From contig NZ_JARKMS010000002.1 of assembly GCF_029350945.1 (NCBI RefSeq), positions 701,376 to 765,375 of the forward strand: a stretch of DNA of 64,000 nucleotides. The letters are read 5' to 3'. Source of the stretch: Maribacter huludaoensis (GTDB lineage Bacteria; Bacteroidota; Bacteroidia; Flavobacteriales; Flavobacteriaceae). Shown piece by piece: positions 18,612-63,264 of the stretch. Position numbers and translations under genes: made by a program. Every line of letters starts with the position of its first letter. Positions within the stretch are counted from its first letter, which is position 1. The notes beneath the pieces are model-generated. The model did no database searches. It was not told the DNA's origin and saw only the letters and a list, made by a program, of their open reading frames with translations.

Positions 18612-18617
18612 TTTACT

Positions 18618-19076
18618 ATGCGTAATAAAATAGATTCCGTTTTAGGCAAGACGTTGGTACTTATCATGTCCATCATGGTCATCAATGTGCTCTGGCAAGT
18701 TTTTACAAGATATGTCACCGGTAACCCTAGTTCATTTACAGATGAATTAGCGCGCTTTTTAATGATTTGGATAGGTGTATTGGGCGCAGCATATGTTTCT
18801 GGTAAAAATTTGCACGTAGCCATAGATATTTTACCTCTTAGGCAAAGTAAACAAACACAAAAAAAGTTAAAAACAATCGTCACCTTTTTGATCATACTAT
18901 TTGTTTTTTTCGCTTTTGTGATCGGTGGTTCAAGGTTGGTTTATATTTCCTATGTATTAGGGCAACAATCACCAGCATTACAATTGCCTTTGGCAATTGT
19001 TTACCTAATTATTCCCATAAGTGGCCTGTTGATTATGTATTACAAAATTTTCGACTTAAAACAAATGAACTCATGA
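18618..19076 (+). CDS. dctQ: TRAP transporter small permease DctQ
   Basis: The 152-residue protein has four membrane helices and the DctQ features WQVFTRYVTGNPSSFTDELARFLMIWIGVLGAAY. It pairs with DctM to form the membrane part of the sodium-driven transporter. The start lies 6 bases after dctP and its TGA overlaps the dctM ATG by four bases (ATGA), showing coupled translation. Confidence 0.93.
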   Translation: MRNKIDSVLGKTLVLIMSIMVINVLWQVFTRYVTGNPSSFTDELARFLMIWIGVLGAAYVSGKNLHVAIDILPLRQSKQTQKKLKTIVTFLIILFVFFAFVIGGSRLVYISYVLGQQSPALQLPLAIVYLIIPISGLLIMYYKIFDLKQMNS

Positions 19077-20371
19077 TGGAGCATTTACCAATTATCGTTT
19101 TAGTATTAAGTTTCATATGCTTACTGTCAATAGGGACGCCTGTAGCTTGGAGTATAGCAATTTCATCTTTATTGACCATGTTGGTGAGTATACCTGCCAT
19201 GCCGGCATTTACTACTGTATCTCAACGTATGGCAACTGGTCTGGACAGTTTTGCCTTGTTGGCAATTCCATTCTTCGTATTGTCTGGTGAGCTTATGAAT
19301 AAGGGTGGTATAGCTCATAGGCTCATTGCATTTGCCAAAACTTTGGTAGGTTCTTTTCCTGGTGGTTTGGCATTAATAAATGTTATTGCCGCAATGTTAA
19401 TGGGGGCCATTGCCGGGTCTGCAATGGCATCGGCATCCGCAATGGGCAGCATTTTGGGACCGGAGATGGAAAAGGAAGGGTACTCCAAGGAATTTGGTGC
19501 AGCGGTAAATATCACTTCTGCAACTACAGGTTTAATTATACCACCTAGTAACGTTTTAATCGTTTATTCATTGGCAAGTGGCGGTGCGTCTATTGCCGCG
19601 CTATTTTTAGCAGGATACGTTCCTGGTATTATGACCGGTCTATTTTTAATGATCGTAGCCGCTTTTTGGGCAAAAAAGAAGAAGTACAAAGTAGGTAAAC
19701 GAAGTAGTTTAAAAGAAGTTGGGAAAACATTTATAGACGCTTTACCCAGTCTATTTATGCTGGTAGTGGTAATTGGTGGTATAGTTACCGGTATTTTTAC
19801 GGCAACAGAAGCTTCGGCCATTGCAGTTTTGTATAGCTTGGTGTTAGGTTTTATTTACAAAGAAATATCCCTACCTAAATTACCTCAAATTTTACTGGAT
19901 TCTTCAGCTACCACGGCAATTGTTATGTTGTTAATCGGATCATCAATGTGCATGTCATGGGCATTGTCCTATGAAAATATTCCGCAAGATATTAGTACAG
20001 GACTTTTAAGTTTAAGTGATAATAAAATTGTTATTCTTTTAATTATCAACTTACTATTATTGTTCGTGGGTATTTTTATGGACATGACCCCGGCTGTTTT
20101 GATCTTTACGCCAATTTTTTTACCCGTTGTAACTAAATTGGGACTGGACCCGGTGCATTTTGGAATTATCATGGTGCTCAATCTATGTATCGGGTTATGT
20201 ACACCGCCCGTAGGTTCTGTTTTGTTTGTTGGGGTAGGTGTGGCCAAAACTACTATTGAAAAGGTGTTTAAACCATTATTGCCGCTGTTTATAGCAATGA
20301 TAGTTGCCCTTTTCTTGGTCACTTATATTCCACAATTAAGCTTATGGTTGCCAAGCTTGTTCAATTTGTAG
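19073..20371 (+). CDS. dctM: TRAP transporter large permease DctM
   Basis: The 432-residue protein has about 12 helices and typical DctM motifs: LDSFALLAIPFFVLSGELMNKGGIAHRL, AGSAMASASAMGSILGPEM, a PPSN motif in TGLIIPPSNVLIVY, and FMDMTPAVLIFTPIFLPV. It is the translocation subunit, driven by the sodium gradient. It is the last gene of the uxaC-dctPQM unit. The convergent lacI gene ends 67 bases downstream, and no clear terminator is visible between them. Confidence 0.94.
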   Translation: MMEHLPIIVLVLSFICLLSIGTPVAWSIAISSLLTMLVSIPAMPAFTTVSQRMATGLDSFALLAIPFFVLSGELMNKGGIAHRLIAFAKTLVGSFPGGLALINVIAAMLMGAIAGSAMASASAMGSILGPEMEKEGYSKEFGAAVNITSATTGLIIPPSNVLIVYSLASGGASIAALFLAGYVPGIMTGLFLMIVAAFWAKKKKYKVGKRSSLKEVGKTFIDALPSLFMLVVVIGGIVTGIFTATEASAIAVLYSLVLGFIYKEISLPKLPQILLDSSATTAIVMLLIGSSMCMSWALSYENIPQDISTGLLSLSDNKIVILLIINLLLLFVGIFMDMTPAVLIFTPIFLPVVTKLGLDPVHFGIIMVLNLCIGLCTPPVGSVLFVGVGVAKTTIEKVFKPLLPLFIAMIVALFLVTYIPQLSLWLPSLFNL

Positions 20372-27049: not shown

Positions 27050-27868
27050 ATGAACGAATTATTATCCTTAAAAGATAAAAATTATGCACTTTCAGGTGGA
27101 ACAGGAACCTTAGGTGGATCCATTGCCCAATATTTAGTTGAAAATGGTGCTAAAGTTTTATTGTTAGGAAGGTCAGAAGATAAATTAAAGGATAAGCAGA
27201 ACGAGCTGAATGCGCTTGTACCAAATAGTACATTCGTATTTAAGGTCGATGTCATGAATGAGTCTGAACTTGTTAAGTTGAAGAATAATATAAAAGAAGA
27301 ATTTAAACACCTTGACGGACTAGTAAACCTAGCTGGCGGTAATATTCCGGGAGCAACCTTAAAGCCAGACCAAACAATTAGGGATATTTCTATGGGTGAT
27401 ACTAGAAAGGTTGTTGATATTAATTTATTCGGTACGGTTATACCAACTGTAATTTTAAGTGAATTAATGGTAGAGCAGGGCTATGGCTCAATTGTTAATA
27501 TTTCTTCAATGGCCGCAAAACAAACTATTTCTAGAGTTCTTGGGTATTCAATGGCCAAGAGTGCCGTAGATATTTTCACCAAGTGGATGGCCAATGAACT
27601 GGCTTCTAAACATGGAGATAAAATTAGGGTAAATGCCGTAGCGCCCGGGTTTTTTATAGGCAATCAAAATAGACGTTTGTTGACCAATGAGGACGGTTCC
27701 TTTACCGAAAGAGGTAACAGTATTATTAAAAATACGCCAATGGGTAGATTTGGCGATGCGTCTGAGTTAAATGGTATGGTTCATTACTTGCTTAGTGATG
27801 CATCTAGTTTTGTTACCGGTAGTATTTTTGATGTAGATGGTGGCTTTACTTCCTTTTCTGGAGTGTAA
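27050..27868 (+). CDS. uxuB: SDR-type D-mannonate oxidoreductase, copy 1
   Basis: The 272-residue SDR has SGGTGTLGGSIA (cofactor loop), NLAGGN, NISSMAA and YSMAKSA (YxxxK). The long GFFIGNQNRRLLTNEDGSFTERG and the ending DVDGGFTSFSGV are shared almost word for word with the copy at 56427-57257. This subgroup reduces D-fructuronate to D-mannonate in Bacteroidota uronate pathways. Product would go to UxuA. It is followed 60 bases later by the NHL/cytochrome lipoprotein, with a LacI-type palindrome in that gap. Confidence 0.85.
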   Translation: MNELLSLKDKNYALSGGTGTLGGSIAQYLVENGAKVLLLGRSEDKLKDKQNELNALVPNSTFVFKVDVMNESELVKLKNNIKEEFKHLDGLVNLAGGNIPGATLKPDQTIRDISMGDTRKVVDINLFGTVIPTVILSELMVEQGYGSIVNISSMAAKQTISRVLGYSMAKSAVDIFTKWMANELASKHGDKIRVNAVAPGFFIGNQNRRLLTNEDGSFTERGNSIIKNTPMGRFGDASELNGMVHYLLSDASSFVTGSIFDVDGGFTSFSGV

Positions 27869-27896
27869 ATGCAATTTTTAAAGTTTGGCTATTCTT

Positions 27897-27908
27897 GTAA
27901 TCGATTAC
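27897..27908 (+). promoter_or_regulatory. LacI-type operator GTAATCGATTAC
   Basis: This is a perfect 12-bp palindrome with a CG centre, lying between the uxuB stop and the ATG of the NHL/cytochrome gene at 27929. It shares its core GTAATCGATT with the uxaC operator. Its position inside the longest reading frame of the downstream gene also argues for the later start. Confidence 0.5.
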
Positions 27909-27928
27909 CTAATTTACCATTAATTTTC

Positions 27929-30166
27929 ATGCGCTTAATTTTTTATAGTTTACTTGTTTTCTTCTGTCTTTTAATCTCTTGTAATTCAGGTTATGATGAA
28001 ACAGAAGTATCTTTAGATTCATATGTTGTAGAGGACGGATTCAACTTAAAGGTTTTGGCGGCAGAACCACTACTTAAAGCTCCTGTTGCCATAGATTTTG
28101 ATGCTAAAGGTAGAATTTGGGTAGCGCAAATGCCTGGGTATATGAACGATCTTCAAGGGTCTGGTGAAGAAGAACCTTCCGGCAGTATTGTTATTCTTGA
28201 AGACTTGGATAAAGACGGTGTCGCAGATCATTCTAAAATATTTATGGATAGTTTGGTAATGCCTCGGGCCTTGGCGCACGTTTATGGTGGTTTACTGTAT
28301 GCAGAACCTCCATATTTATGGTTCGTGGATATTGAAAATGATAAGCCGGTAAACAAAGTTATGGTTGATTCAATTTATGCGGTTGAAGGTAACCCGGAAC
28401 ATCAGCCAAACGGATTGGAACTGAATATTGATAATTGGATATATAATGCAAAGTCTAATTTTAGATATCGAAGAATTGATGGTGTTTGGAAAAAAGAACC
28501 CACGACGTTTAGAGGCCAATGGGGCATTACCCACGATAATTTTGGCCGACTTTACTACAATGATAATTCTAGAATTTTATTGGGAGATTATGTGTTGCCA
28601 AATACACTGATAGATAACCAATATTATACACCTAAAGCTAGCGTAGATAAACTATTGACCAATGATCAAAGGGTGTATCCTGCTTTTGCGGGGTCTGTAA
28701 ATAGAGGGTATGCAAAGGGAGTTTTGAATGCAGATAGCTTACTCGTCAATGCTACGGCAGCTTGTAGTCCATTGGTTTATAGAGGAGGGAGCTTTACTCA
28801 ATCTTATTCCGAGAATGTTTTCGTATGTATTCCTGAAGGGAATTTGATAAAGCGTTTGCGTTTAAACTTTATGGGAGATGCTACCAAAGCAGAACAAGTT
28901 TGGCAGAATAAGGAATTTATAACCTCTTTAGATGAAGGGTTTAGACCGGTAAGCTTAAAGAACGGTCCCAATGGTAGTATGTATGTGGTAGATATGCATA
29001 GAGGTATGATTGGGCATCATGCATATATGAGTCCGTATCTACGGGATAAAGCAAAGGCTAAAGAGTTGGATACCATTGTTAACTTCGGAAGGATTTTTAA
29101 GGTATCTCATAATAATGCAACTAGTAATTATTTAACGGATTTTGATTCTTTAAATGGTAGTGAATTGGTCTCTTTGCTACAAAGTGATAATGGATGGATT
29201 CGTGATCGTGCCCAGCATTTTTTAATCTTTAAGGAGCTGAAAACGGTTATTGACGACGTTAAAGACCTTGCATTGAACAACAAAAATCCTTTAGGTCAAC
29301 TACATGCACTATACGTTTTGGAAGGCTGGAATGCCTTGTCCTTCGATTTTCTTGTAAGTGTTATTGAAGAAAGTAATAGTGATGTAGCTTCTCATGCTTT
29401 GGTGATTATAAAGGATTTTATTTCAGAAAAGTCAATTGAACAGGCAAGTCATATTTTTAAGAGTGCTTTAGATAGGAATGAATTAGGTTTAGATGTTTAC
29501 CTAGCCAATGTTCTAGGTCACTGGGTTAAAATTGATAAGGATCGATTTCAGCCTTTATTGACCAAAATCTTAGAGCGAAGGGAGCTGAATACCACTGTAA
29601 TAGATGCTGCAATCAGTGGAGTGGAAAAGGTAGATGCCGTTTTATATAATGATCAGGTCATAAAGAAAAACCTCAAAAACACCCCTTTTCTCAGTAAGCT
29701 TGAAAATGCGATAACCAATAGAAAATCTGATAAGAAGAATGCTATTTATACTCGTGAAGTAATACGTGAAGATACGCGTACTAGTGGGTCTAAAATGTTT
29801 TTTCAAATTTGCGCCTCGTGTCACGGTGCAGATGGTAAAGGTATTGATGGTTTGGCACCACCACTTATGGGATCTGAGCATGTTAAGAATACAGAGCGTT
29901 TGGCATTGATTATATTACACGGGTTGGAAGGTCCTGTTCATGTAAATGGAGAACGTTATGATATAAATTTGGCAATGCCCGGACTTATTAGAAATGAATC
30001 TATAAGCGATCAAGATATTGCCAATATTATATCATATGTAACCAATGCTTTTTCTGATCGATCCAGAAGTTTAAGCAACAAGCGAATTAGTGAGTTGCGA
30101 AACGTAAAATCATCTACGGGGATGGAGTTTACCGAACCGGAATTACAAGCTTTAGATAAAAAATAG
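27929..30166 (+). CDS. secreted NHL-type dehydrogenase lipoprotein with C-terminal cytochrome c
   Basis: The 745-residue protein has a lipoprotein signal (MRLIFYSLLVFFCLLISC, Cys18). The N-terminal half is a PVC-type beta-propeller domain (FNLKVLAAEPLLKAPVAIDF, GRIWVAQMPGYM, EGNPEHQPNGLELNIDNWIYNA), followed by a helical repeat region and a c-type cytochrome domain (CASCH at residues 628-632, with a later methionine ligand in LAMPGL). Such proteins are thought to be periplasmic dehydrogenases passing electrons to a cytochrome chain; substrate is unknown. I start at 27929 because the signal peptide begins there. It meets uxuA copy 1 tail to tail, 2 bases apart. Confidence 0.85.
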   Translation: MRLIFYSLLVFFCLLISCNSGYDETEVSLDSYVVEDGFNLKVLAAEPLLKAPVAIDFDAKGRIWVAQMPGYMNDLQGSGEEEPSGSIVILEDLDKDGVADHSKIFMDSLVMPRALAHVYGGLLYAEPPYLWFVDIENDKPVNKVMVDSIYAVEGNPEHQPNGLELNIDNWIYNAKSNFRYRRIDGVWKKEPTTFRGQWGITHDNFGRLYYNDNSRILLGDYVLPNTLIDNQYYTPKASVDKLLTNDQRVYPAFAGSVNRGYAKGVLNADSLLVNATAACSPLVYRGGSFTQSYSENVFVCIPEGNLIKRLRLNFMGDATKAEQVWQNKEFITSLDEGFRPVSLKNGPNGSMYVVDMHRGMIGHHAYMSPYLRDKAKAKELDTIVNFGRIFKVSHNNATSNYLTDFDSLNGSELVSLLQSDNGWIRDRAQHFLIFKELKTVIDDVKDLALNNKNPLGQLHALYVLEGWNALSFDFLVSVIEESNSDVASHALVIIKDFISEKSIEQASHIFKSALDRNELGLDVYLANVLGHWVKIDKDRFQPLLTKILERRELNTTVIDAAISGVEKVDAVLYNDQVIKKNLKNTPFLSKLENAITNRKSDKKNAIYTREVIREDTRTSGSKMFFQICASCHGADGKGIDGLAPPLMGSEHVKNTERLALIILHGLEGPVHVNGERYDINLAMPGLIRNESISDQDIANIISYVTNAFSDRSRSLSNKRISELRNVKSSTGMEFTEPELQALDKK

Positions 30167-30168
30167 AA

Positions 30169-31347
30169 CTATTTTAAGCTTTTTCTAATTCCCATTTCCA
30201 AACCTCTTAATTCAGCTAAACCTCTAAGTCTACCAATGCCAGAATATCCCGGATTGGTTTTCTTTCTAAGGTCGTCTAACATTTTATGCCCGTGGTCGGG
30301 GCGCAAGGGCATTCTAGTGTCGTTACGACCAGCGGCTTTTCTTTTATTTTGCTCATTGATCAACGCTTTCATTACCGAGTACATATCAACATCACCTTCT
30401 AAATGATTCGCTTCATGAAAATTACCATCGGCATCGCGCTGTGTACTACGTAAATGAATAAAGTGAATTCGGTCTCCTAAGCGGTATACCATGCCCGGTA
30501 AATCATTGTCCGGTCTTACACCAAAAGACCCTGTACAAAATGTTAATCCGTTATTAGGGCTATCAACGGCTTTATAAAGATCAACAATATCTTGTTCCGT
30601 ACTTACCACTCGTGGTAAACCTAAGATAGGAAAAGGCGGGTCATCTGGATGAATACACATACGAATACCCGATGCTTCGGCTACCGGAATAATTTCAGAT
30701 AAAAATTCAAATAGATTATTCTTCAATTCTTTTGGTCCTATAGCATCATAGGTTGCTAAAATTTCATTGAATTCCTCTAATGTGTACCCTTCTTCTGCAC
30801 CAGGTAAACCGGCTATTATGTTACCGATAAGCTTGTTTTTGTCCGCTTCTGAAAGCTTTTGGAAATAGGCTTTGGCAGCATTTTTTTGTGTCTCGGTATA
30901 AGTGTCTTCCGCTCCGGGTCTTTTTAACAGATATAATTCAAAGGCAGCAAAGGCATTAGCTTCAAACCGAAGCGCGGTAGAGCCATCTGCCACTTCGTAA
31001 TCTAAATTGGTACGTGTCCAATCTAAAACGGGCATAAAATTGTAGCAAACCGTATCTATGCCACATTGTCCAAGATTGGTAATAGTTTGTTTGTAGTTGT
31101 CGTAATAAGTTATATAATCTCCTTTTTGGGTCTTTATTTGCTCATGAATTGGAACACTTTCTACGACCGACCACGTTAAGCCGGCAGCTTCTATAGTGTT
31201 TTTTCGCTTCATTATTTCATCTACGGACCATATAACTCCGTTGGGAATATGGTGCAATGCGCTAACAATTCCTGTTGCACCTGCTTGTTTTATATCTGAT
31301 AACGATACTGGATCATTTGGTCCGTACCAACGCCATGTTTGTTCCAT
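30169..31347 (-). CDS. uxuA: mannonate dehydratase, copy 1
   Basis: The 392-residue enzyme dehydrates D-mannonate to 2-keto-3-deoxy-D-gluconate. Family motifs are [42 protein letters not shown], the metal-site segments [17 protein letters not shown] and [19 protein letters not shown] and [12 protein letters not shown] start at 31347, where the conserved MEQTWRW begins; a GTG/ATG further upstream adds 19 unlike residues. It is very similar to copy 2 at 55228-56412, with long identical blocks. It follows the Gfo/Idh gene (36 bases) in the DUF1080-Gfo/Idh-uxuA operon. Confidence 0.94.
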
Positions 31348-31382
31348 TCTTTTAAATAAATTTCTAAGATAATATATTAGAA

Positions 31383-32738
31383 TTACACATCTTTTATTTC
31401 CCAACCAGGCTCATAGGTTCTAGACCATAATTTCATGGCTTCCCTATTAAAAATACGACCTGTAGTTTCATCAACTTCAAATGAATCATCTATTCTAGTA
31501 GCTATGTTTGCATAATGTGTTAACATTTGGCTAATAGCACCCTCATCTATAGGAGAGGTTAATTCGGCTTTTCCCCTAATGGCATCAAAGAAGTTGACAG
31601 TGTGTAGAGTTGACATATCGCCACCACCACCTAGTGCGGTACCTGCCTCTTCACCGGAAGAAAGGTTTTCTTTAATGAAATTTCCTTTTTGGTCAAATAA
31701 CTTATAACCGCCGCGATCAATATATGCAGTACCTTCTGAACCTGAAACTATGGTGCCTCTACCATATTTATTGCCAAATTTATGATAGCCGGTTCTACTA
31801 TTTCCATCCCACTTAATAGTTTTGTTTCCAGCGAATTTAAAAGTTGCTTCCATTGTGTCATACATTTCCCAGCCATCATCTTTATAATGATACTTGCCAG
31901 CATCTACAGATACGTGTTTGGGATAGGTAACACCCAATGCCCAACGTGCAATGTCAAGTTCATGGGTTGCATTGTTGCCCATTTCCGCGGTACCATAGTC
32001 CCATCCGTACCAATGCCAATTATAATCCCAAGTGTTGTCCGTGTACGCTCTTCTTGGAGCCGGTCCTTGAAAAAGTTCCCAATCCAAACCTTCTGGTGGG
32101 TTTGCTTTGGTTTGGTGGGGTACACGACCTCTTGCACTAATATAGAATGCGGTTGCCTTATATACATCACCAATTACGCCGTTATGTATATCTCTTATAA
32201 TTTCTTGAGATTCTAGGGCAGATCTTTGCTGGTTGCCCATTTGAACTACTTTATCAAATTTCTTTTGATAGGCAACCACCAACTCACCTTCGCGCGGGTT
32301 ATGGCTACAAGGTTTTTCTAAATAAACGTGTTTGCCGGCTTGCATTGCCATACAGGCACCTGGTGCATGCCAATGATCTGGTGTGGACATAAATATGGCA
32401 TCAACATTTTTATCGTCCAATATTTTTCTGATGTCATTCTCCAATTTTGGTTTGCTGCTAATTTTAGAGGCTACTTCTGTGGCAGCTTTGTCTCGCTGAC
32501 TTTTCATTACATCACATAAATAGGTAAGCTCAACATTATTTTTTTTATGTGCTATAGCAGGTATATAGGCACCATACCTTCTACCTAAACCTTGAATAGC
32601 TACATGAATTCTATCGTTTGCACCTATTATTTTAGAATAGCTCTTTGCTGTCATCGCATTCGCGGTACTACTGGCTATTGTAGCCCCAACTGCACCCAAA
32701 GCTGTTTTCTTAATAAAATTTCTTCTGTTTGAACTCAT
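31383..32738 (-). CDS. Tat-exported Gfo/Idh/MocA oxidoreductase
   Basis: The 451-residue protein has a twin-arginine signal ([27 protein letters not shown]), a Rossmann domain ([26 protein letters not shown]) with the EKP motif ([11 protein letters not shown]), and the usual C-terminal catalytic domain ([25 protein letters not shown]). Tat export implies folding with bound NAD in the cytoplasm, as in the GH109-like and 3-keto-forming members of this family. It is encoded 5 bases from the DUF1080 gene, which suggests joint action on an exported sugar. Substrate is unknown. Confidence 0.9.
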
Positions 32739-32743
32739 CGTAT

Positions 32744-34132
32744 TTATTCTTTTGTATTATTTATAGCTCGGATTTTTACATTTTTGAACGATACCAAATC
32801 TCCATGGTCCTGTAGTAGTATTTGACCTTGATCCAATTCCCCGAAATTGGGCCACTTGGCATATTTACTTTCAGAAACCAATGTTCTATATGCATCACTT
32901 TTTCTTTCATATTCAAGAACTTTGGTCCCGTTTAGCCAATGTTCTACATGGTTGTTTTTAGATATGATATAAGCTGTATTCCATTCACCTATAGGTTTAA
33001 TGGGTTTGTTTACATCTGCTTGAATTAAATCGTAAAGAGAGCTAACAGTTCTGCTGCCTTCATGGTTTCCTTTTTTTGCATCGGGGTGAAGGTTGTCATC
33101 CAATATTTGATATTCCAGCCCAATTGAAGAGCCTTCACCTTTATTGATCTTAGTGTCAACATAGTATTTAATACCACTGTTGGCTCCTGGGGTTAATTTA
33201 AAATCAACTTTCAATTCAAAATCTCCATAAAGTTCTTTGGTTACAATATCACCACCTGCGGCAGACTCTTCCCCTCCAGAAGAAAGTACGCTTAGAACGC
33301 CATCTTCAATTTTCCATCCTTTCTCAGGGAATTCTTCTAACTTGGCACCTCTCCAACCATCAGTAGTTTTTCCGTCCCAGAGAAGTTTCCAGCCGTCTTT
33401 CTTTTCATCTATGGTCAGTTGATTTTTGATAATAATTGGTGTTAAAGGAGAATTTCTTGAGTATTTAGAAACACTATCGGTTATGATTCTTACATTTTTC
33501 CAAATAATATCTGTTCCTGCTTTTTGATCTTTGTGTATGCTATGCACTTGTAGGCATATAAAGCCTTTTGCGGTTTTATCATCTATAAGATATGCGGCTG
33601 GTACGTCATTTACCCAAGTTTTAATCGTATCACCTATAGCTTCAATTCTATAATGGTTCCAATCGTTTTGCTTAAAGGCTTTTTGTGCAGCGGGATTATC
33701 GGTCATAGGGTTTAGCCAACCACGCCTTGACTCATCATAAATACCGCCGCTCCAGGCTCTTTCAGAAGGGTCTATTTCAACTTGATATCCATGTACCCTG
33801 CCATCTCTATATGTTGGTATACTATTACTTCTAATTTGAATTCCCGAATTCATGGTAGAATCTACCTTATAGTCTAATTCTAATATGAAATCGCTATACA
33901 TTTCATCGGTAGTTAAAAATGTATTAGGTGTGTTGTGTGTTGTGGTTCCTACTATGGCACCTTCTTTAATGGCATAGGTTGCATCTCCTCCTAATTTATG
34001 CCATCCTTTTAAAGTTTCTCCATCAAAAAGATTCACCCAAGGAGCATCGTCTTTAGGAGTTTCGGCGCAACTAATTAGAAATGTAGCTGTTGTCGCAAGT
34101 AATAATTTGGTCTTTAATAGGTGATTTTTCAT
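32744..34132 (-). CDS. tandem DUF1080 (3-keto-disaccharide hydrolase family) lipoprotein
   Basis: The 462-residue protein has a lipoprotein signal (FLISC, Cys22) and two copies of the DUF1080/PF06439 jelly-roll domain: residues about 30-220 ([18 protein letters not shown] ... NSGIQIRSN) and about 245-455 ([17 protein letters not shown] ... NSGIKYYVD). Characterised members act on 3-keto-glycosides made by a partner oxidoreductase. Pairing with the Tat-exported Gfo/Idh enzyme fits that idea. The fused double form is common in Bacteroidota. It heads the operon DUF1080-Gfo/Idh-uxuA and has a long palindrome 34 bases upstream. Confidence 0.88.
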
Positions 34133-34734: not shown

Positions 34735-34767
34735 AAAAAAAAGCTCCATAAAAATGGAGCTTTTTTT
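34735..34767 (-). terminator. terminator adjoining the tRNA remnant
   Basis: AAAAAAAAGCTCCAT pairs with ATGGAGCTTTTTTT around a 4-base loop. Read on the minus strand, it directly follows the tRNA 3' end, as a tRNA gene's own terminator would. Confidence 0.8.
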
Positions 34768-35048: not shown

Positions 35049-35762
35049 TTAATTATTTGGCTTTGGATATGGTTTATTTCTCACCGGATCGCTTAAGCTA
35101 TGACCTATGCCGTTATTAAAAACATAATTATAATTTCTAAGCCTTTCATTATTGCCTCCTCCAGTTGCCGTGCTAGGCAAAGGTGCAGGTGACCTATTAA
35201 CATCAATTCTTAGTTGGCTATCTCTTCTAAGAACAATTTTACCATCTTCACCTGGTATTAATGTTTGAAACTCGTAGTTAACGTCACGAACCAATAATGG
35301 GTCGTTCTGGGTTATATACGTGGTAATGATATGGTATTGAAGTATTAAGCGTAATACATCAACATCTGCCCTTGCCATAACTTCCGTAGGTGTTTCACCT
35401 TCTTCTATATCTGCTGATCCTGTCACTAAGGCGATGATATCACCATTACCTTCAAAAGCATTATTGTTCAGCATTAGAAATGTTCTGCCATTGTTTGCTG
35501 TGTTGTATTCGGCTACCATATCAGCGGCCTCTATAGCAGCTTTAAAATAGTTCAGGCCGTCACCGTTCAGGGTGCCATCTTCGTTCAGTTTTAGTACTTG
35601 TGGAGTATTAAGGAATTGCCAAGCTGTCATTTCACCATATGGGTCTGTAAGATCAACTTCCGGTTCAAAGACGAAACGCTCTTGTAAATCAATGTCGCAT
35701 CCTATTAATGCAAACATCAGTAGAAACGTTCCACAAAATTTTAGTGCTTTTATTCTTTTCAT
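35049..35762 (-). CDS. fasciclin-like surface lipoprotein of the susCD operon
   Basis: The 237-residue lipoprotein (FALIGC, Cys22) contains a divergent fasciclin-like domain: FLNTPQVLKLNEDG, GLNYFKAAIEAADM, RTFLMLNNNAF, VDVLRLILQYHII and the final NNGIGHSLSDPV. Fasciclin-like lipoproteins are frequent third genes of susCD operons and are presumed to be outer-leaflet glycan-binding or complex proteins. It starts 29 bases after susD and ends at a terminator. Confidence 0.8.
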   Translation of the reverse strand: MKRIKALKFCGTFLLMFALIGCDIDLQERFVFEPEVDLTDPYGEMTAWQFLNTPQVLKLNEDGTLNGDGLNYFKAAIEAADMVAEYNTANNGRTFLMLNNNAFEGNGDIIALVTGSADIEEGETPTEVMARADVDVLRLILQYHIITTYITQNDPLLVRDVNYEFQTLIPGEDGKIVLRRDSQLRIDVNRSPAPLPSTATGGGNNERLRNYNYVFNNGIGHSLSDPVRNKPYPKPNN

Positions 35763-35791
35763 TTTGGTGTGTATTTTTTAAGATTTATTTT

Positions 35792-37369
35792 TTAATACCC
35801 TGGTGTTTGTTCCAATAATGGGTTTTCAACTAAATGCTCATCAAATATTGGAAAAAGCAGTCTCTCGTCCGTTAATGTACGGCCACCTGTAAGTGTATCT
35901 AAAATTGGGTTTAAAATTTCAAGAGCTCTTCCTGTTCTTCTCAAATCCCACCAGCGTTGGCCTTCGCCCAAAAGTTCTAGCTGACGCTCGTCTAATATAA
36001 ATAGCTCACGTTCTTGTTCTGTAGCCCCAAATTCAGCCGCTTCAACTAATGGTAGTTGTCTTGCAGTTCTAAATTCATTTATGATTTCCAGGGCTCTTAA
36101 TTCATTACCAAGTCTATTCTCTACCTCTGCTAGATATAATACAATGTTAGAATAACGGTAAAGAACCATATCACTATCATCTAATGTTTGATTAAAATTT
36201 GCCTTATTGTATTTGGCCATTCTAGCATTACCTACTCCCTTTAGTTCAAGATTGGTAATACCTTCTCGTGATAGGTAATATCTGTAATCTCCATAAACAA
36301 ACTCTTCTTCACCTTCTTCGTTAGTAGTGGTAAGCACTGGGTCAGTGTCAGGATATTTAGTTACCCATTCAAGAGAATCTATAGGAAATTTTTCGCGCCA
36401 TTTTTGTTCCAGTGCCGGTGATAACGTAAAAGAAGGTATACCTGCAAAGAACAAATTAAAAATACCTGCTCTGTTTCGGTTGCCACTACCTGGCTCTTCG
36501 TTTAAGCTGAAACCGATTGACATAATCAATTCAGGACCTTGTTGTATCTTTAATGGACCGGAGCTAGATGGATTAGGTGCAAATGGGTCTATGTTATCGT
36601 TTAAAAACAAATTCTGCCAATCTCTAGCACTGGTAACCAAACTGAATTCATTGCTCTCCACAATCTTAAGAAGAGCTTCTTTGGTTTTTATATCATCACC
36701 TAAAAAACCATAGACCTCGGCTTGTAGTGCCCAAATACTAGTTAATGAAAATCTATATGGTCTACTTACTATATCCATATTTTCCTCTGCGGCAAGCATG
36801 TCAGGTATGATAACTTCATTAATTATCGTATTGGCTTCTGTTCTAGGTCTTTGTAAATCTGGACTAGCACCAATAACGGGTTCAGTGAACAATGGTACGT
36901 CTCCCCATACTCTAACCGCTTGGAAATATGCATAAGCTCTCATGGCTTGTGCTTCTGCCAATAATTCCGCGTCAAAACCACTAATATTAGGTACGTTGGC
37001 AATTACCAGATTAGCTCTGTTGATCAAATCGTAATAATCGTTCCATCTTAAAACACCTGCATTACCAGAAGTAACGTCGTTGGTAGTAAGCTCAATATTA
37101 TTTGCGTTGGCACCATCATTTCCATTTATGTAACTATCACCTCTAAATTCTCCCCAATAATAGTGTTTTAACCGAAATGCAGGTTGCATACCGTCGTACA
37201 TTCCTATTACAGTAGCTAAGGCATCATTATTATTTCTGAAAAAATTATCTGGCGAAATTTCACTGATCGGTGATTCATCAACTAAATTTTCACATGATGA
37301 TATAGATAGGGCTCCCAACAGAATGGCAACACTACCTATTATATATTTATTTAATTTTCGTAGTTCCAT
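35792..37369 (-). CDS. susD: SusD/RagB-family glycan-binding lipoprotein
   Basis: The 525-residue protein has a lipoprotein signal (ALSISSC, followed by ENLVDESPIS), SusD-like TPR helices (LLAEAQAMRAYAYFQAVRVWGDVPLFTEPV) and the C-terminal signature LELLGEGQRWWDLRRTG. It caps the SusC channel and binds oligosaccharide at the cell surface. It follows susC by 10 bases. The ligand is probably the rhamnose/uronate glycan handled by the neighbouring genes, but specificity cannot be read from sequence. Confidence 0.96.
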   Translation of the reverse strand: MELRKLNKYIIGSVAILLGALSISSCENLVDESPISEISPDNFFRNNNDALATVIGMYDGMQPAFRLKHYYWGEFRGDSYINGNDGANANNIELTTNDVTSGNAGVLRWNDYYDLINRANLVIANVPNISGFDAELLAEAQAMRAYAYFQAVRVWGDVPLFTEPVIGASPDLQRPRTEANTIINEVIIPDMLAAEENMDIVSRPYRFSLTSIWALQAEVYGFLGDDIKTKEALLKIVESNEFSLVTSARDWQNLFLNDNIDPFAPNPSSSGPLKIQQGPELIMSIGFSLNEEPGSGNRNRAGIFNLFFAGIPSFTLSPALEQKWREKFPIDSLEWVTKYPDTDPVLTTTNEEGEEEFVYGDYRYYLSREGITNLELKGVGNARMAKYNKANFNQTLDDSDMVLYRYSNIVLYLAEVENRLGNELRALEIINEFRTARQLPLVEAAEFGATEQERELFILDERQLELLGEGQRWWDLRRTGRALEILNPILDTLTGGRTLTDERLLFPIFDEHLVENPLLEQTPGY

Positions 37370-37379
37370 TTTAGTTTAT

Positions 37380-40300
37380 TTAAAATTTAAGATTAAGACC
37401 TAGGATTACTTCACGGTCATTTGGAAACCTTAGGTTGTCCACCCCTGGTTGTAACGGATTACCTCTTGTTCCTAATTCTGGATTAAAGCCTGGATAATTG
37501 GTCCAAGTAAGCAAGTTGTTACCAGATATATAAAAAGAACACTTTTTAACAAAACCAAACTGCTCTAAAGCTTTTTTAGGCAAGTCATAACCCAGTCTAA
37601 CAAAACGTAGTTTTATAAAGCTACCGTCAGTTACATAGAAACTATTAGGTCTGTCCCTGTTTTGTGGGACCCTGGTTAATCTTGGATAAACCGTAATGTC
37701 TCCAGGATTTTGCCAAGCACCCTCTATACGGTCTGGACCCGGTGTCTCACCTCCTGAGTTTAAATCATTTCTAGCTTCGTCCCAACGTCTCCACGTATCG
37801 TTTCCTAAAGTAAAGTCAAACAAAAAGCTAAGGCTTATATCTTTATATTTAAAATCGTTTGAGAATCCACCAAATGATTTTGGTAAACCATTTCCTATGG
37901 TCTGTCTGTCTTCGTTTGTTATGACGAAATCACCATCAACATCATCCCAGAAGATATCACCACCTTGGGCAACACGACCGTCATTTCTTATTTGGTTCAC
38001 ATCTCCGGTAAACTCTGATCCGTTAAGGGTATAATTCACAAACTCTCCAGAATTGTCAAAATTAGGTGTCAGCTGAACGCCATCATTTGTAAATGCGTTA
38101 GATTCATCATATTGAAAAACCCCTAAGTTTTTAAAACCGTAAATATTACCAATTGGTTGACCTTCTTCAATTAAGTAGTCACCTGATTGAAATGATGTAC
38201 CACCGAAGAGTTGAGTAACCTCATTTTCTTGAAAACTAATGTTGAAATTACTATTCCAACTAAAATTTTTGGATTGTATGATGCTTCCACCAATATTTAG
38301 GTCAATACCTTGATTTCTTACTGCTCCAACATTCTGTCTTATGCCAGAGAAACCAGACTCCTCCGGTAGAGGTACATTGGCCAATAAATCTTTGGTATCT
38401 TTTCTCCAAACATCAAAATTTATAGTAAATCTATTCTTGAACATTCCTAAATCAAAACCTAGGTTAGTGGCAACCGTACTTTCCCAACTTAATTCTGGAT
38501 TTCCTAATCTGGTAGGTGATACTCCGCTAATACCATCGTAAACTGCACCAGGTGTAAAAGCAGATGTAAATTCATAATCCCCAATTCGATCATTTCCGGT
38601 TTCACCATAACTGGCTCTTAACAAAAGGTTGTTGATTTTACTATTACTGTTCTTGAAGAACGGTTCATTGCTTACTCTCCACCCAATTGAACCTGAGGGG
38701 AAATAACCAAATTCATTGTTGTCTCCAAATCTTGATGAACCATCTCGTCTTAACGTTGCACTTATAAGATAGCGGTTATCAAAGTCGTAGTTGAAACCTC
38801 CAAAGAGTGAGTAAAGGTTACTTTTTGTGTTAAAAGTTTGCCCTCCGTTAATACCTATACCATTTGGATCAACATTGTTAAATGTCTGTACGTCTTCTGA
38901 AACGAAAAGAGCATTTGAAATTCCAAAATTTTCCTCACTTCTACGAAGTATTTGCATACCGGCAAAAGAGGATACACTATGTTTACCAAAATCTTTATTA
39001 TAGTTTATAAAATTTTCTTGTTGTATATCATAGTCGATTCTATCTCTAAGGCTACCCAAAGGATTTGTGTTTCTAGGGTTTAAAACCAATAAAGGTTGAA
39101 AATCATTATTACGTCTCAATCTAAAGTTGATACCTAATGTAGATTTTATAGAGAAGGACGGAGTAAATTTATATTGAACAGAATTAAAGCTTTGTGCCCT
39201 CCACGTTCTTAACTTTAATTGTCTAAGTTGCGCTTCGGCAACCGGATTTTGTCTACCACCAAATTCTGGGGTAAAACTACCGTCCGGTTCAAATACAGGA
39301 TAATAGGCAATACGTTCAACAAGTTGCTGAAAAACCTGATTTTCATTTAATCCACTAAATTCTTCAAATGATGCGTTAAAGCTTGTACTTAACGTTAGTT
39401 TTGTAGATGGGGTGAAATCTAATTTAAATCGGCTATTGATTCTTTTAAAACTACTGTTGATAACAATACCTTCTTCATTTAAAAAACCGTTGTTCCAGTA
39501 AGCTTTTAGTTTTTCGCCACCTCCACTTACTGCTACGTTTACCTGATTTCTTATACCAGCCTTGGTAATCAATTCTTGAAGATCAAATGAATTACGGTTT
39601 CTAAGACTTAATGAATCTCGTTGCAGTCCTGTGGGATTTTCACGTTGTGCCGCAGTACGTCTTACATCTTCGTAAAACAAGCGTTGTCTGGTATTGGCAA
39701 CCGGTATAGCTCCGTTTAATGTGTTTATTCCACTTACTACGTTTACATCTATGGTAACATCACCTCTCTTACCAGATTTTGTGGTAATCAAAACAACACC
39801 GTTTGCACCACGTGTACCGTAAATTGCAGTGGTGGCACCATCTTTTAAAACCTCAAGGGAAGCTATATCATTTGGGTCTATATTGTCTATATTGTCCAGT
39901 TGTTGACCGTCTACTACATATAAAGGTCCCGTACCACCGGCACTAAACGTTGATGTACCTCTTACTCTAATATCAAAACCAGCACCTGGACCTCCGTTAC
40001 TTGCAATTTGTACCCCGGCCAATCTACCTTGTACACCTTCAAAAGCATTTGAAGGAGTTACCTCGGCAATTTTTTCTGATTTTACAGAACTTAATGAGCC
40101 TAATACCTTCTCCCTAGAAACGGATGAATAACCTATTACGACAACTTCATCCAGGGCTTCGGTATCTTCTTCTAATGTCACATTTATGCTAGAGGAATTA
40201 ACCGTTACATCCTTGGTATTAAAACCAATATAGGAAAAGGTCAATACTCTAGAACCTGGTACTAAATTAATAGTATAATTACCATCAAAATCACTGGACA

Positions 40301-40487
40301 TACCGTTATTTGTCCCTTTTTGTACTACGTTAACGCCGGGCAAAGGTTCTCCGTTAACGTCGGTAACTGTACCTTTTACGGTACTTACCTGTGCAAAAGC
40401 TGATGTACTGGTTATCATGAACATGATCATGGTAGCCAATACAGAGAAGGTAGCAATACGCGAGCGTTTGTTACACTTTTTTTTCAT
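37380..40487 (-). CDS. susC: SusC/RagA-family TonB-dependent transporter
   Basis: The 1035-residue outer-membrane transporter has a signal peptide (ending STSAFAQ), a carboxypeptidase-like domain (VSTVKGTVTDVNGEPLPGVNVVQKGTNNG... DFDGNYTI), the plug with TonB-type box region (EALDEVVVIGYSSVSRE, LYVVDGQQLDNI, LKDGATTAIYGTRGANGVVLITTKSG) and a 22-strand barrel ending REVILGLNLKF. It imports oligosaccharides with SusD, powered by TonB. The operon is susC-susD-fasciclin. The candidate GntR operator A lies 131 bases before its start. Confidence 0.97.
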   Translation of the reverse strand: MKKKCNKRSRIATFSVLATMIMFMITSTSAFAQVSTVKGTVTDVNGEPLPGVNVVQKGTNNGMSSDFDGNYTINLVPGSRVLTFSYIGFNTKDVTVNSSSINVTLEEDTEALDEVVVIGYSSVSREKVLGSLSSVKSEKIAEVTPSNAFEGVQGRLAGVQIASNGGPGAGFDIRVRGTSTFSAGGTGPLYVVDGQQLDNIDNIDPNDIASLEVLKDGATTAIYGTRGANGVVLITTKSGKRGDVTIDVNVVSGINTLNGAIPVANTRQRLFYEDVRRTAAQRENPTGLQRDSLSLRNRNSFDLQELITKAGIRNQVNVAVSGGGEKLKAYWNNGFLNEEGIVINSSFKRINSRFKLDFTPSTKLTLSTSFNASFEEFSGLNENQVFQQLVERIAYYPVFEPDGSFTPEFGGRQNPVAEAQLRQLKLRTWRAQSFNSVQYKFTPSFSIKSTLGINFRLRRNNDFQPLLVLNPRNTNPLGSLRDRIDYDIQQENFINYNKDFGKHSVSSFAGMQILRRSEENFGISNALFVSEDVQTFNNVDPNGIGINGGQTFNTKSNLYSLFGGFNYDFDNRYLISATLRRDGSSRFGDNNEFGYFPSGSIGWRVSNEPFFKNSNSKINNLLLRASYGETGNDRIGDYEFTSAFTPGAVYDGISGVSPTRLGNPELSWESTVATNLGFDLGMFKNRFTINFDVWRKDTKDLLANVPLPEESGFSGIRQNVGAVRNQGIDLNIGGSIIQSKNFSWNSNFNISFQENEVTQLFGGTSFQSGDYLIEEGQPIGNIYGFKNLGVFQYDESNAFTNDGVQLTPNFDNSGEFVNYTLNGSEFTGDVNQIRNDGRVAQGGDIFWDDVDGDFVITNEDRQTIGNGLPKSFGGFSNDFKYKDISLSFLFDFTLGNDTWRRWDEARNDLNSGGETPGPDRIEGAWQNPGDITVYPRLTRVPQNRDRPNSFYVTDGSFIKLRFVRLGYDLPKKALEQFGFVKKCSFYISGNNLLTWTNYPGFNPELGTRGNPLQPGVDNLRFPNDREVILGLNLKF

Positions 40488-42024: not shown

Positions 42025-44124
42025 ATGCAGGTCAAAACATATAAACACGTAGATTATCTTTGGGACGAATCAAAAGCGTCAGAGCTAGGGGACAACCAGG
42101 TAGAGTTGTTTCTTTACAGGTCAAATATTTTAGGAGCAGACCTTCGTATAACAAACTTCGGTGGTGGTAATACTAGCTGTAAAACTATTGAAAAAGATCC
42201 TCTTACAAATGAAGAGGTTGAAGTAATGTGGATCAAAGGTTCTGGTGGTGATATTGGGACTCTTACAAAAGCTGGTATAGCGGGCCTGTATACAGAGCGA
42301 CTTAGAAATTTGAAGAATGTTTATGGTGGTCTAGAAGATGAAGACCGTATGGTAGGGCTGTTTAATCATTGTATTTATGATTTGGACAGCAAAGCTCCTT
42401 CAATTGACACCCCTTTACACGGTTTACTTCCTTTTAAACATATAGATCATTTACATCCTGATGCATTAATAGCGGTAGCCGCGGCAAAAGACAGCGAGAA
42501 GGTTACCAAAGAAATTTGGGGAGATACCATGGGGTGGGTGCCATGGCAAAGACCAGGTTTCGATTTAGGTCTGCAACTTGAAAAGTGTTTAAATGACAAC
42601 CCTGGTATTAGAGGTATTGTATTAGGTAGCCATGGTCTTTTTACTTGGGGAGATACATCATACGAGTGTTACCTTAATAGTTTAGAGGTTATTGAAATGG
42701 CCTCTGAATACATTGAGAAAAAAATTAAAGAGAACGGTAGTGTATTTGGTGGGCAAAAAGTAGAAAGTCTTCCTGAAGAAGAGCGCAAGGAAAAAGCAGC
42801 TAAACTTATGCCGTTACTTAGAGGACTTTGTTCTTCAGAAAATCAAATGATCGGTCATTTTACCGATACGGATGTAGTATTGGAGTATATTAATAGTAAT
42901 GATTTGGAAAGATTGGCACCTATGGGGACTTCTTGTCCGGATCATTTTTTAAGAACCAAGATTCAACCATTGGTTCTTACCTTAAGTACAGATGAGGATT
43001 TTTCCAATAGTGAAAAGGTATTGGAAAAACTTACTCCTGCATTTGAAAATTATAGAAAAGAATACGCTGAATATTACGAAAATTGTAAAAGGGATAATAG
43101 CCCTGGAATGAGGGATCCTAACCCGGTAATTATTATTTATCCTGGGGTAGGTATGTTCAGTTTTGCAAAGAATAAGCAGACTACAAGGGTGGCAAGCGAG
43201 TTTTATATCAATGCCATAAACGTAATGCGTGGTGCCGAGGCCATAACCGAGTATACATCTTTGCCAAGACAAGAGGCATTTGATATTGAATATTGGTTGT
43301 TGGAAGAAGCTAAATTACAGCGTATGCCAAAAGAAAAACCATTGTCTAGAAAAGTAGCTCTGGTTACCGGCGCCGGTGGCGGTATTGGTAAAGCTATAGC
43401 GGATAAACTTGCTGAAGAGGGTGCCAATGTAGTGCTTACCGATATTGTTGAAGATCGGTTGGTTGAAGGTGTGGCAACCTACAAAAGAGATGTAGCCAGC
43501 TATGCTGTTTGTGATGTTACCAATACGGAGTCTATAGCCAATGCCTTTAAAAAAGCATGTTTAGAATTCGGCGGTGTAGATATCATAGTTCACAGTGCTG
43601 GTTTGGCCATTTCCAAACCCTTGGAGGAAACTACCGACAAAGATTGGAATTTGTTACAGAACGTGCTAGTTAAAGGTCAGTTTGACCTGGCTAAGCAAGG
43701 TGTTGCCGTAATGAGAGATCAGGGCTTAGGAGGTAATTTTATTAGTATAGCCAGTAAAAACGGATTAGTTTCTGGACCTAACAATGTTGGGTATGGTACC
43801 TCTAAAGCAGCGCAACAACATATGAGCCGTTTATTGGCAGCGGAACTAGGCAAAGATAAAATTAGGGTTAACGTTGTAAATCCTGATGGGGTAATAGTTG
43901 GTAGTAAGATTTGGGAAGGTGACTGGGCCGAAGGTCGTGCCAAAGCGTATGGAATAACTGTAGATGAGTTGCCTGCACATTACGCTAAAAGAAATTTATT
44001 GAACGAGATCATTTATCCAGAAGACATTGCTAACGGTGTTTTTGCCTGTGTAGGAATTTTAGACAAATCAACAGGTAATATTATTAATGTCGATGGCGGT
44101 ATGGCCAATGCATTTGTAAGGTAG
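42025..44124 (+). CDS. bifunctional rhamnulose-1-phosphate aldolase / lactaldehyde dehydrogenase
   Basis: The 699-residue fusion has a class II aldolase domain (residues about 30-400; GGGNTSCKT, HIDHLHPDALIAVAAAK zinc site, VLGSHGLFTWG) and a C-terminal SDR domain (VALVTGAGGGIGKAIADKL, HSAGLA, ISIASKNG, YGTSKAA, NIINVDGG). The known RhaEW-type enzymes split L-rhamnulose-1-phosphate into DHAP and L-lactaldehyde and oxidise the latter to L-lactate. The following isomerase, kinase and L-lactate dehydrogenase complete the route. It is the first gene of the plus-strand rhamnose operon, under site B. Confidence 0.95.
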   Translation: MQVKTYKHVDYLWDESKASELGDNQVELFLYRSNILGADLRITNFGGGNTSCKTIEKDPLTNEEVEVMWIKGSGGDIGTLTKAGIAGLYTERLRNLKNVYGGLEDEDRMVGLFNHCIYDLDSKAPSIDTPLHGLLPFKHIDHLHPDALIAVAAAKDSEKVTKEIWGDTMGWVPWQRPGFDLGLQLEKCLNDNPGIRGIVLGSHGLFTWGDTSYECYLNSLEVIEMASEYIEKKIKENGSVFGGQKVESLPEEERKEKAAKLMPLLRGLCSSENQMIGHFTDTDVVLEYINSNDLERLAPMGTSCPDHFLRTKIQPLVLTLSTDEDFSNSEKVLEKLTPAFENYRKEYAEYYENCKRDNSPGMRDPNPVIIIYPGVGMFSFAKNKQTTRVASEFYINAINVMRGAEAITEYTSLPRQEAFDIEYWLLEEAKLQRMPKEKPLSRKVALVTGAGGGIGKAIADKLAEEGANVVLTDIVEDRLVEGVATYKRDVASYAVCDVTNTESIANAFKKACLEFGGVDIIVHSAGLAISKPLEETTDKDWNLLQNVLVKGQFDLAKQGVAVMRDQGLGGNFISIASKNGLVSGPNNVGYGTSKAAQQHMSRLLAAELGKDKIRVNVVNPDGVIVGSKIWEGDWAEGRAKAYGITVDELPAHYAKRNLLNEIIYPEDIANGVFACVGILDKSTGNIINVDGGMANAFVR

Positions 44125-44143
44125 TTGTTTGTAGTTTTTTTAA

Positions 44144-44182
44144 AAGCTTTTATAGATGAAAATCTATAGAAGCTTATTTTTA
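44144..44182 (+). terminator. intercistronic hairpin (attenuator or partial terminator) between aldolase and isomerase genes
   Basis: A 14-pair stem (AAGCTTTTATAGAT with ATCTATAGAAGCTT, one G-U pair) is closed by a GAAA tetraloop and followed by ATTTTTA. It lies 20 bases after the aldolase stop and ends shortly before the isomerase ATG. It may lower expression of downstream genes or stabilise the upstream message. Confidence 0.6.
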
Positions 44183-44199
44183 ATGGGAAATTAATATTT

Positions 44200-52269: not shown

Positions 52270-52318
52270 TATAAATTTTTAGGGTTTATTCTAAAATTAC
52301 AGTTTTGTAGTAAAGGTA

Positions 52319-52338
52319 GTGTCCTGTACTATACGGCA
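52319..52338 (-). promoter_or_regulatory. candidate GntR operator, site C (GMC gene)
   Basis: Read toward the gene the site is TGCCGTATAGTACAGGACAC. It shares the core GTATAGTACAGGA with site B (15 of 20 overall) and begins 50 bases upstream of the GMC start. Confidence 0.5.
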
Positions 52339-52371
52339 AACCTTAAAAGTATAGGTAAATTGGCTTTAGAA

Positions 52372-53553: not shown

Positions 53554-53565
53554 AAAACTCTATAT

Positions 53566-54360: not shown

Positions 54361-54371
54361 ATTTCTATTTT

Positions 54372-55211: not shown

Positions 55212-55227
55212 TTTTATTGTTTTAATA

Positions 55228-56412: not shown

Positions 56413-56426
56413 ATTTTATAATTGTT

Positions 56427-59472: not shown

Positions 59473-59483
59473 CTGAAAATAAC

Positions 59484-60611: not shown

Positions 60612-60631
60612 TATCAATTGTTTAAATAGAA

Positions 60632-63262: not shown

Positions 63263-63264
63263 TC

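Follow-up and report, generated by a model that had tools for sequence, protein, structure and literature searches.

Known oxidative glycoside pathways and the locus analyzed here

The closest described counterpart of the genes studied here is the BT2156-BT2160/AL3-type oxidative glycoside pathway, reportedly set out by Nasseri et al. in Nature in 2024. Here, we analyze two neighboring genes, encoding a lipoprotein with two DUF1080 domains and a putatively exported dehydrogenase of the Gfo/Idh/MocA type, in a 64,000-nucleotide stretch of the Maribacter huludaoensis genome (RefSeq assembly GCF_029350945.1, contig NZ_JARKMS010000002.1, forward-strand positions 701,376 to 765,375; hereafter the window). 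Like the known pathway, the window combines an exported Gfo/Idh enzyme with a partner of the DUF1080 family PF06439, and AL3 is its best sequence match. It differs in having another Gfo/Idh subfamily, a two-domain DUF1080 protein and an Asn at an Asp position, and in lacking a gene of the sugar-phosphate-isomerase-like AP_endonuc_2 type in its unit, where the mannonate dehydratase gene uxuA follows instead.

Papers are cited below by PubMed Central (PMC) identifier. BT2157 goes by the name of 3-ketotrehalose hydrolase in PMC9007349. The same paper places a DUF1080 gene of Caulobacter near the lactose 3-dehydrogenase; this DUF1080 gene matters for growth on lactose, on which its mutant is defective (PMC9007349). 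This lactose route resembles the window in joining DUF1080 to a 3-dehydrogenase, and differs in that its dehydrogenase is the membrane-bound LacABC and its substrate is lactose (PMC9007349). Deletions of BT2157 and BT2158 caused no growth defect on raffinose-family sugars (PMC11501099), which speaks against the importance of the BT2157/BT2158-type pathway. The Agrobacterium O-glycoside beta-eliminase pathway shares the logic of C3 oxidation, elimination, hydration and reduction, but it uses a TIM-barrel Mn eliminase and a flavin dehydrogenase, and PF06439 is not named in the available part of the paper (PMC10628242); in a related system, an AP_endonuc_2 gene acts as the hydratase (PMC10628242). 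Finally, the Protein Data Bank (PDB) entry 8tdi is titled 'P2B11 Glucuronide-3-dehydrogenase', so oxidative attack on uronides has precedent. P2B11 shares the Gfo/Idh type with the window enzyme and differs from it by a lower fold score and low identity (values below).

For ulvan, the reference is the pathway of Formosa agariphila, in which the action of a sulfatase-GH78 protein (the architecture of P36) leaves a saturated uronate at the non-reducing end, GlcA/IdoA-Rha3S. Either GH3 or a dehydratase working with GH105 then cleaves it, and xylose is a further constituent of ulvan oligosaccharides (PMC8511951). A sulfatase-GH78 hybrid, PL28, a Uly1040-like protein, GH3 and GH88 likewise occur around our gene pair or its second copy in the same genome, and the difference lies in how the saturated uronate is cleaved in Formosa. 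The main text of PMC8511951 contains none of the terms 'oxidoreductase', 'dehydrogenase', 'Gfo' and '3-keto', and 'DUF' a single time. More generally, in searches that covered open-access main texts, we found no report of DUF1080 or Gfo/Idh in ulvan loci, nor of the two together in ulvan or uronate loci. An earlier reading of the window made from its letters alone (hereafter the sequence-only reading) had proposed an oxidative route acting on a uronate-containing glycoside, a combination that it did not know from described polysaccharide utilization loci (PULs). The chemistry itself is already known, from the BT2157/BT2158-type pathway, the NCBIfam family 'glycoside 3-dehydrogenase' and 8tdi; what looks new is its repeated tie to glucuronate and ulvan breakdown.

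A conserved module of two genes

The DUF1080 and Gfo/Idh genes are 5 nt apart by their open reading frame (ORF) coordinates, and uxuA lies 35 nt downstream of the latter (Table 1). This is the arrangement that the sequence-only reading had described, and the family models agree with it: PF06439, the 3-keto-disaccharide hydrolase family, matches the lipoprotein in two stretches, far above its curated cut-off of 26.8 bits, PF01408 matches the dehydrogenase, and TIGR00695 matches UxuA. We also read a lipobox-like LISC in the DUF1080 protein and a twin-arginine-type start, SNRRNFIKK, in the dehydrogenase.

At E <= 1e-100, the Gfo/Idh protein is found in 41 of 149 genomes of the window's family. 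We examined two sets of loci. The first (family loci) consists of stretches of 20 kb, each centered on one of 40 Gfo/Idh matches, out of 52 outside the own genome; the second (named loci) consists of the best 80 of at least 579 relatives, which, going by their genera, include Flavobacteriales, Cytophagales and Bacteroidales. The sets share genomes (e.g., L044/L092, L045/L094, L047/L098 and L051/L119) and are therefore not independent; among the 80 named stretches, 55 have the full length and 25 are shorter than 21 kb. A two-domain DUF1080 gene (DUF1080x2) lies no more than two genes upstream of the Gfo/Idh gene, on the same strand, at 35 of 40 family loci and at 52 of the best 80 named loci. 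The two sets together hold 79 directly adjacent pairs, with a median gap of 5 nt and with <=30 nt between the genes in 76 cases, some negative gaps being due to over-long ORF starts. Because 35 of 40 loci keep the order and 76 of 79 gaps are this short, the arrangement is not a product of chance, and the pair is a conserved module. The own genome holds a second DUF1080-Gfo pair ~66 kb further on (DUF1080 69% and Gfo 59% identical).

Two further observations concern the module in relatives. A second exported Gfo/Idh (~396 aa) occurs near it at 25 of the best 80 named loci, at 21 of them directly downstream, and at 19 of 40 family loci; the window unit has none. Identities of the two partners to the window proteins can run in opposite directions (L047: DUF1080 52%, Gfo 73%; L070: DUF1080 78%, Gfo 47%), as if, in L047-L049 versus L069-L081, partners had been exchanged.

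Homology and predicted fold fit a proposed glycoside 3-oxidation

In a profile search of the PDB, the best matches of the window Gfo/Idh were 8tdf and 8tdh (135 and 134 bits), both titled as glucoside-3-dehydrogenase AL3, followed by DgpA (87 bits). The predicted structure (pLDDT 84.5) gave the Alistipes enzyme AL3 as Foldseek rank 1 and as the first VIA-align match (Z 35.5, rmsd 3.0, 371 aligned residues, 28% identity). DgpA1 (Z 35.1) and DgpA (Z 34.7) are within 1 Z unit and thus tied with AL3, and a function cannot be assigned from the fold. The Gfo/Idh fold, the twin-arginine start and the EKP lysine, features that we chose to represent the BT_2158 glycoside 3-dehydrogenase family, are all present; in the subfamily of 126 proteins, the EKP lysine is kept in all 126 and the motif R[RK]xF[ILV] in 124. 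Residues in our alignments are numbered one below the protein numbers for both window proteins, the inputs lacking Met1.

The DUF1080 protein matches the two-domain structure 4jqt, named only 'putative glycosyl hydrolase', over its full length (549 bits). Its C-terminal domain matches 8v31, 8rr2 and 8tda, the last of which we take to be the DUF1080 partner from the work of Nasseri and colleagues, at 125-127 bits. In this domain, the stretches E-x-Q-x-L-D, H-P-D-A-K, S-L-Y-D and Q-D-H-G-D are common to the alignments with 4jqt, 3hbk, 8v31, 8rr2 and 3osd (5/5). By contrast with the C-terminal domain, the N-terminal one gave weak matches to solved single-domain DUF1080 proteins, at most 37 bits, and in the domain-versus-domain alignment it did not show the E-x-Q / H-P-D-A-K stretch. 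For both reasons we do not favor the N-terminal domain as a second, identical active site; judging by these alignments it has drifted, and the C-terminal domain, closer to the solved single-domain enzymes, is likely the active one. Taken at this level, the oxidative cleavage proposed by the sequence-only reading gains support from homology and predicted fold.

Gfo/Idh genes co-occur with glucuronate catabolism

Of the 41 genomes that have the Gfo/Idh, 39 encode a full-length UxuA; of the 108 that lack it, 16 do (odds ratio 112, p 1.5e-20). The counts use 68 full-length matches in 55 genomes; weaker or partial rows were dropped, and two genomes with them (57 to 55). These tests treat genomes as independent, and shared ancestry makes their p values too generous. 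As a lifestyle control, RhaA (PF06134) was useless (0 of 149 genomes pass its cut-off), and XylA was therefore used. Within XylA-positive genomes, UxuA still occurs in 37 of 38 with Gfo versus 12 of 23 without (odds ratio 34, p 3e-5). A related, BT_2158-like control family, present in 64 genomes at E 1e-100 of which only 10 exceed the family's own cut-off, gave an odds ratio with UxuA of 3.45 (34/64 genomes). The altronate dehydratase UxaA is also associated with Gfo overall (odds ratio 11), but this tie is gone once UxuA is present (odds ratio 1.16, p 1.0), so the link looks stronger to the glucuronate branch.

The association is visible in gene neighborhoods too. UxuA lies <=10 kb from 7 of 54 Gfo matches and from 0 of 84 control matches. 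Among the best 80 named loci, 23 carry UxuA, UxuB or UxaC and 13 a TRAP transporter DctM, and in four Cyclobacterium loci (L122, L123, L129 and L159) the Gfo gene directly follows uxuA with no DUF1080x2 gene. Neighborhood and co-occurrence counts thus both support the uronate link that the sequence-only reading had drawn from a single uxuA gene.

For comparison of gene content we used 40 of the 84 control matches, hand-picked so that most came from different genomes and lay clear of the ends of contigs. These control loci contain DUF1080 at 10 of 40, an SusC-like gene at 3 of 40 (10 of 40 at test loci), AP_endonuc_2 at 0 of 40 and one KdgK-like gene, KdgK being outside the counted marker set. 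With so little DUF1080 and SusC and no AP_endonuc_2, they do not represent the canonical pathway and are less PUL-like. Locus markers were called by BLAST bit thresholds that we set ourselves.

The surroundings resemble ulvan loci

Rhamnosidase-like genes of the GH78 type accompany the module at 11 of 40 family loci and at 15 of the best 80 named loci, whereas none of the 40 control loci has one. The GH78-like proteins group by sequence into a set of 12 hybrids (1172-1196 aa) and 11 stand-alone members (611-755 aa), Pfam checks having been made on L117, L036 and L085. The hybrids, which occur at 12 loci when both sets and L036 are counted, belong to one family; the two scanned, that of L117 and that beside the second pair of the own genome, contain sulfatase and GH78 domains by Pfam. 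Taken together, UxuA/UxuB/UxaC, GH78-like or ulvan-lyase-like genes are found at 17 of 40 family loci, 39 of the best 80 named loci and 0 of 40 control loci; restricting the controls to those with DUF1080 leaves 17/40 versus 0/10 (p 0.01).

In the window itself, the protein at 60632-63262 matches Uly1040, which we take to be an ulvan lyase, at 668 bits, and rhamnose genes, GH88 and GH3 are also present. A PL28 ulvan lyase gene (L037:5548-8610, 400 bits) starts 5.5 kb past the window end, and at L113 a PL28 gene is ~7 kb from the module. By its gene content, the window lies in an ulvan-type region with predicted ulvan lyase genes. The rhamnosyl-uronate oligosaccharides put forward in the sequence-only reading fit these surroundings, as a substrate that we infer. 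A separate feature of this flavobacterial region is a set of DUF1501 and planctomycete-type PSCyt1/PSCyt2/PSD1 cytochrome proteins (L037:10076-14384) between the PL28 and sulfatase genes.

Weighing the interpretations

The exported pair probably cuts acidic sugars by oxidizing them first. We judge it evenly balanced whether the pair is, more specifically, a variant of the oxidation-elimination glycoside pathway with saturated glucuronosyl (or iduronosyl)-rhamnose from ulvan-type polymers as its likely substrate. Several results weigh against this interpretation. The dehydrogenase misses the cut-off of the NCBIfam glycoside 3-dehydrogenase BT_2158 family (NF058561) by far, 147.6 of 750 bits, and this score would place it in a different subfamily. 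Its residue 255, at what is presumably the usual catalytic Asp of Gfo/Idh enzymes, is Asn in 124 of 126 subfamily proteins, where control Gfo/Idh have Asp (41/41); the second exported Gfo/Idh has Glu there (44/44). P2B11 is more distant than AL3 (Z 33.2 versus 35.5, 16% identity), and 8tdi is not among the 57 profile sequence matches at E 1e-5. The window unit has no AP_endonuc_2 gene, and the nearest own-genome match of the second exported Gfo/Idh is 29% identical and on another contig. In the stretches read, uronate, GH78 and ulvan-lyase markers are all lacking at 23 of the 40 family loci and at 41 of the best 80 named loci, and the control loci have less of a PUL character than those of the module. 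XylA (odds ratio 47), GH78 (20; genomes called at a best E below 1e-20, 31/62) and UxaA also co-occur with Gfo; sugar genes abound in PUL-rich genomes, and the co-occurrence with UxuA is partly a matter of lifestyle. Finally, the GH88 and GH3 genes of the window could do the same job.

In a rival reading, the same oxidative chemistry acts on neutral sugars, as found in glucosides, xylosides, galactosides or rhamnosides, and the uronate genes are mere neighbors, as PULs bring sugar genes together. AL3, the best sequence match, is titled as a glucoside enzyme, XylA co-occurs with Gfo too, xylose is also part of ulvan oligosaccharides (PMC8511951), and the stretches read show no UxuA/UxuB/UxaC at 34 of 40 family loci and 57 of the best 80 named loci. 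We nevertheless consider a neutral substrate unlikely, given that the genome-level UxuA link persists within XylA-positive genomes and that Gfo follows uxuA directly in the Cyclobacterium loci. The AP_endonuc_2 genes bear on both sides. They occur at 15 of the best 80 named loci, as a neutral-glycoside pathway would have it, and coincide at 0 of these with the uronate/GH78/ulvan-lyase markers found at 39, where multiplication predicts ~7 (Fisher p 1.3e-5; shared ancestry may explain this).

The DUF1080 protein might instead be an ordinary glycosidase or binding protein, with the Gfo/Idh acting on the released sugar or in another step. The DUF1080 endo-xanthanase of Thermogutta terrifontis is active on unoxidized glucans (PMC10881899), the N-terminal domain is only weakly similar to the solved single-domain proteins, and 25 of the best 80 named Gfo loci, several of them short stretches, show no DUF1080x2 gene. 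The very tight and conserved DUF1080-Gfo pairing makes this explanation improbable, as do the lactose-defective mutant of the DUF1080 gene near a 3-dehydrogenase and the 3-ketotrehalose hydrolase BT2157 (PMC9007349). It is very improbable that the Gfo/Idh merely recycles cofactor on free sugars, like glucose-fructose oxidoreductase (GFOR), and is unrelated to bond cleavage: glucose-fructose and aldose-aldose oxidoreductases are among the fold matches (Z 31-32), but they rank below AL3 and DgpA, and a tight link to a PF06439 partner would not be expected.

Gene layout of the window

Table 1. Genes and signals of the window discussed in the text (window coordinates).
Feature	Position	Strand	Details
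UxaC, uronate isomerase	16174..17592	+	
TRAP transporter	17634..20371	+	DctP, DctQ by Pfam; DctM (19073-20371) named from sequence
UxuB-type SDR, D-mannonate oxidoreductase family, convergent with the unit	27050..27868	+	NF006132, 306 bits, cut-off 281
DUF7133 + cytochrome c protein, convergent with uxuA	27869..30166	+	Pfam/NCBIfam
uxuA, mannonate dehydratase, third gene of the unit	30169..31347	-	392 aa; TIGR00695, 595.6 bits, cut-off 199.55
Tat-type Gfo/Idh/MocA dehydrogenase	31383..32738	-	451 aa; PF01408, 56.5 bits
DUF1080x2 lipoprotein	32744..34132	-	462 aa; PF06439, two stretches, 304.4 bits
Terminator-like stem between FAS1 and DUF1080 genes	34736..34767	-	14 pairs, T tail; consensus match only
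SusC, SusD, FAS1-like lipoprotein	35049..40487	-	Names are readings of the sequences
Rhamnose catabolism	42025..46863	+	Aldolase/dehydrogenase fusion by NCBIfam; isomerase-like and kinase-like genes named from sequence
Second UxuA and neighboring SDR	55228..57257	-	SDR UxuB-like by place and similarity
PF05426 lyase, GH88, Uly1040-like protein (60632-63262), GH3	58180..63897	-	GH3 probably cut by window edge

The three genes form a compact block. Only 2 nt separate uxuA from the convergent DUF7133/cytochrome c gene, and the upstream FAS1/SusD/SusC genes are 916 nt away. In Maribacter MAG-157 (L103), the block is 96-99% identical at the DNA level, and in Maribacter spongiicola (L083) DUF1080-Gfo-UxuA likewise converges on the genes for UxuB and the DUF7133/cytochrome c protein, without the SusCD of the window. 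Because L083 has the block without this SusCD, DUF1080-Gfo-UxuA is more likely a natural unit of its own. One joint operon that includes SusCD is made less likely by L083, by the gap of 916 nt and by the terminator-like stem. The stem is to be read with caution, since stems of this kind are mildly over-represented at most (11 found, 7.3 expected). The gap holds no remnant of the ORFs compared, and a Pfam search at E 0.001 gave no match for the FAS1-like ORF (35049-35762). A Bacteroidota-type promoter pattern had zero matches in the window, which is uninformative because only 4.5 are expected by chance; sigma-70-like sites are at chance level (38 versus 38.8 expected).

Other neighbors deserve a brief description. 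The DUF7133 (Piru_Ver_Nterm-type)/cytochrome c protein is kept with the unit in Maribacter relatives and may serve the module either as an electron acceptor or as a sugar dehydrogenase linked to heme. A second uronate cluster (50569-57257) encodes a KduD-like SDR, KduI, the second UxuA, an SDR, a DUF4861 protein and a GMC-oxidoreductase-like protein. In the rhamnose cluster, a 470-aa ORF (48037-49449) after an FMN-dependent dehydrogenase has no Pfam match at E 1e-6.

Proposed mechanism and significance

In the reaction scheme that we propose, the exported Gfo/Idh, carrying NAD(P), would oxidize C3 of the non-reducing-end sugar. The DUF1080 lipoprotein, through its C-terminal domain, would then eliminate the leaving group from the 3-keto sugar. 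The resulting keto-glycal would be hydrated and reduced, either by the second Gfo/Idh, which many relatives but not the window unit carry beside the module, or by enzymes from other loci. The released sugar would be saturated glucuronate (or iduronate), split from rhamnose; as free uronate it would be imported, perhaps via the TRAP system, and passed to UxaC, UxuB and UxuA. The first two steps rest on homology and the substrate on gene neighbors. The data show the genes with their conservation, family membership and predicted fold, and their association with uronate and ulvan genes; we infer the reaction, its C3 regiochemistry, its location and the later steps.

The hydration and reduction steps could be supplied by another DUF1080-Gfo pair of the same genome (L038), which has an AP_endonuc_2 gene beside it. 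Among the scanned window ORFs, the two UxuA are the only PF01261 matches (the RhaA-like ORF was outside the scan). UxuA, being AP_endonuc_2-like itself (43.6 bits), was considered as a replacement hydratase; because it passes the mannonate dehydratase cut-off, we keep this as a mere thought.

A broader reading can be put forward tentatively, namely that a dedicated, non-hydrolytic oxidation-elimination route splits saturated glucuronosyl/iduronosyl-rhamnose and has spread through marine Bacteroidota, with an enzyme subfamily tuned to acidic sugars. With equal caution, such a route might be a third way to finish ulvan breakdown, next to cleavage by GH3 and to the pairing of the P29-type dehydratase with GH105. 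The marks of the acid-sugar subfamily might then be the Asn in place of Asp, the two-domain DUF1080 and the absence of an AP_endonuc_2 partner.

Green tides make ulvan a large source of carbon in the sea, and the cleavage of its saturated uronate-rhamnose ends is only partly known. If the proposed route is true, annotation limited to GH and PL families would miss a step encoded in many marine PULs, and the recently described oxidative pathway would be extended from glucosides to acidic algal glycans.

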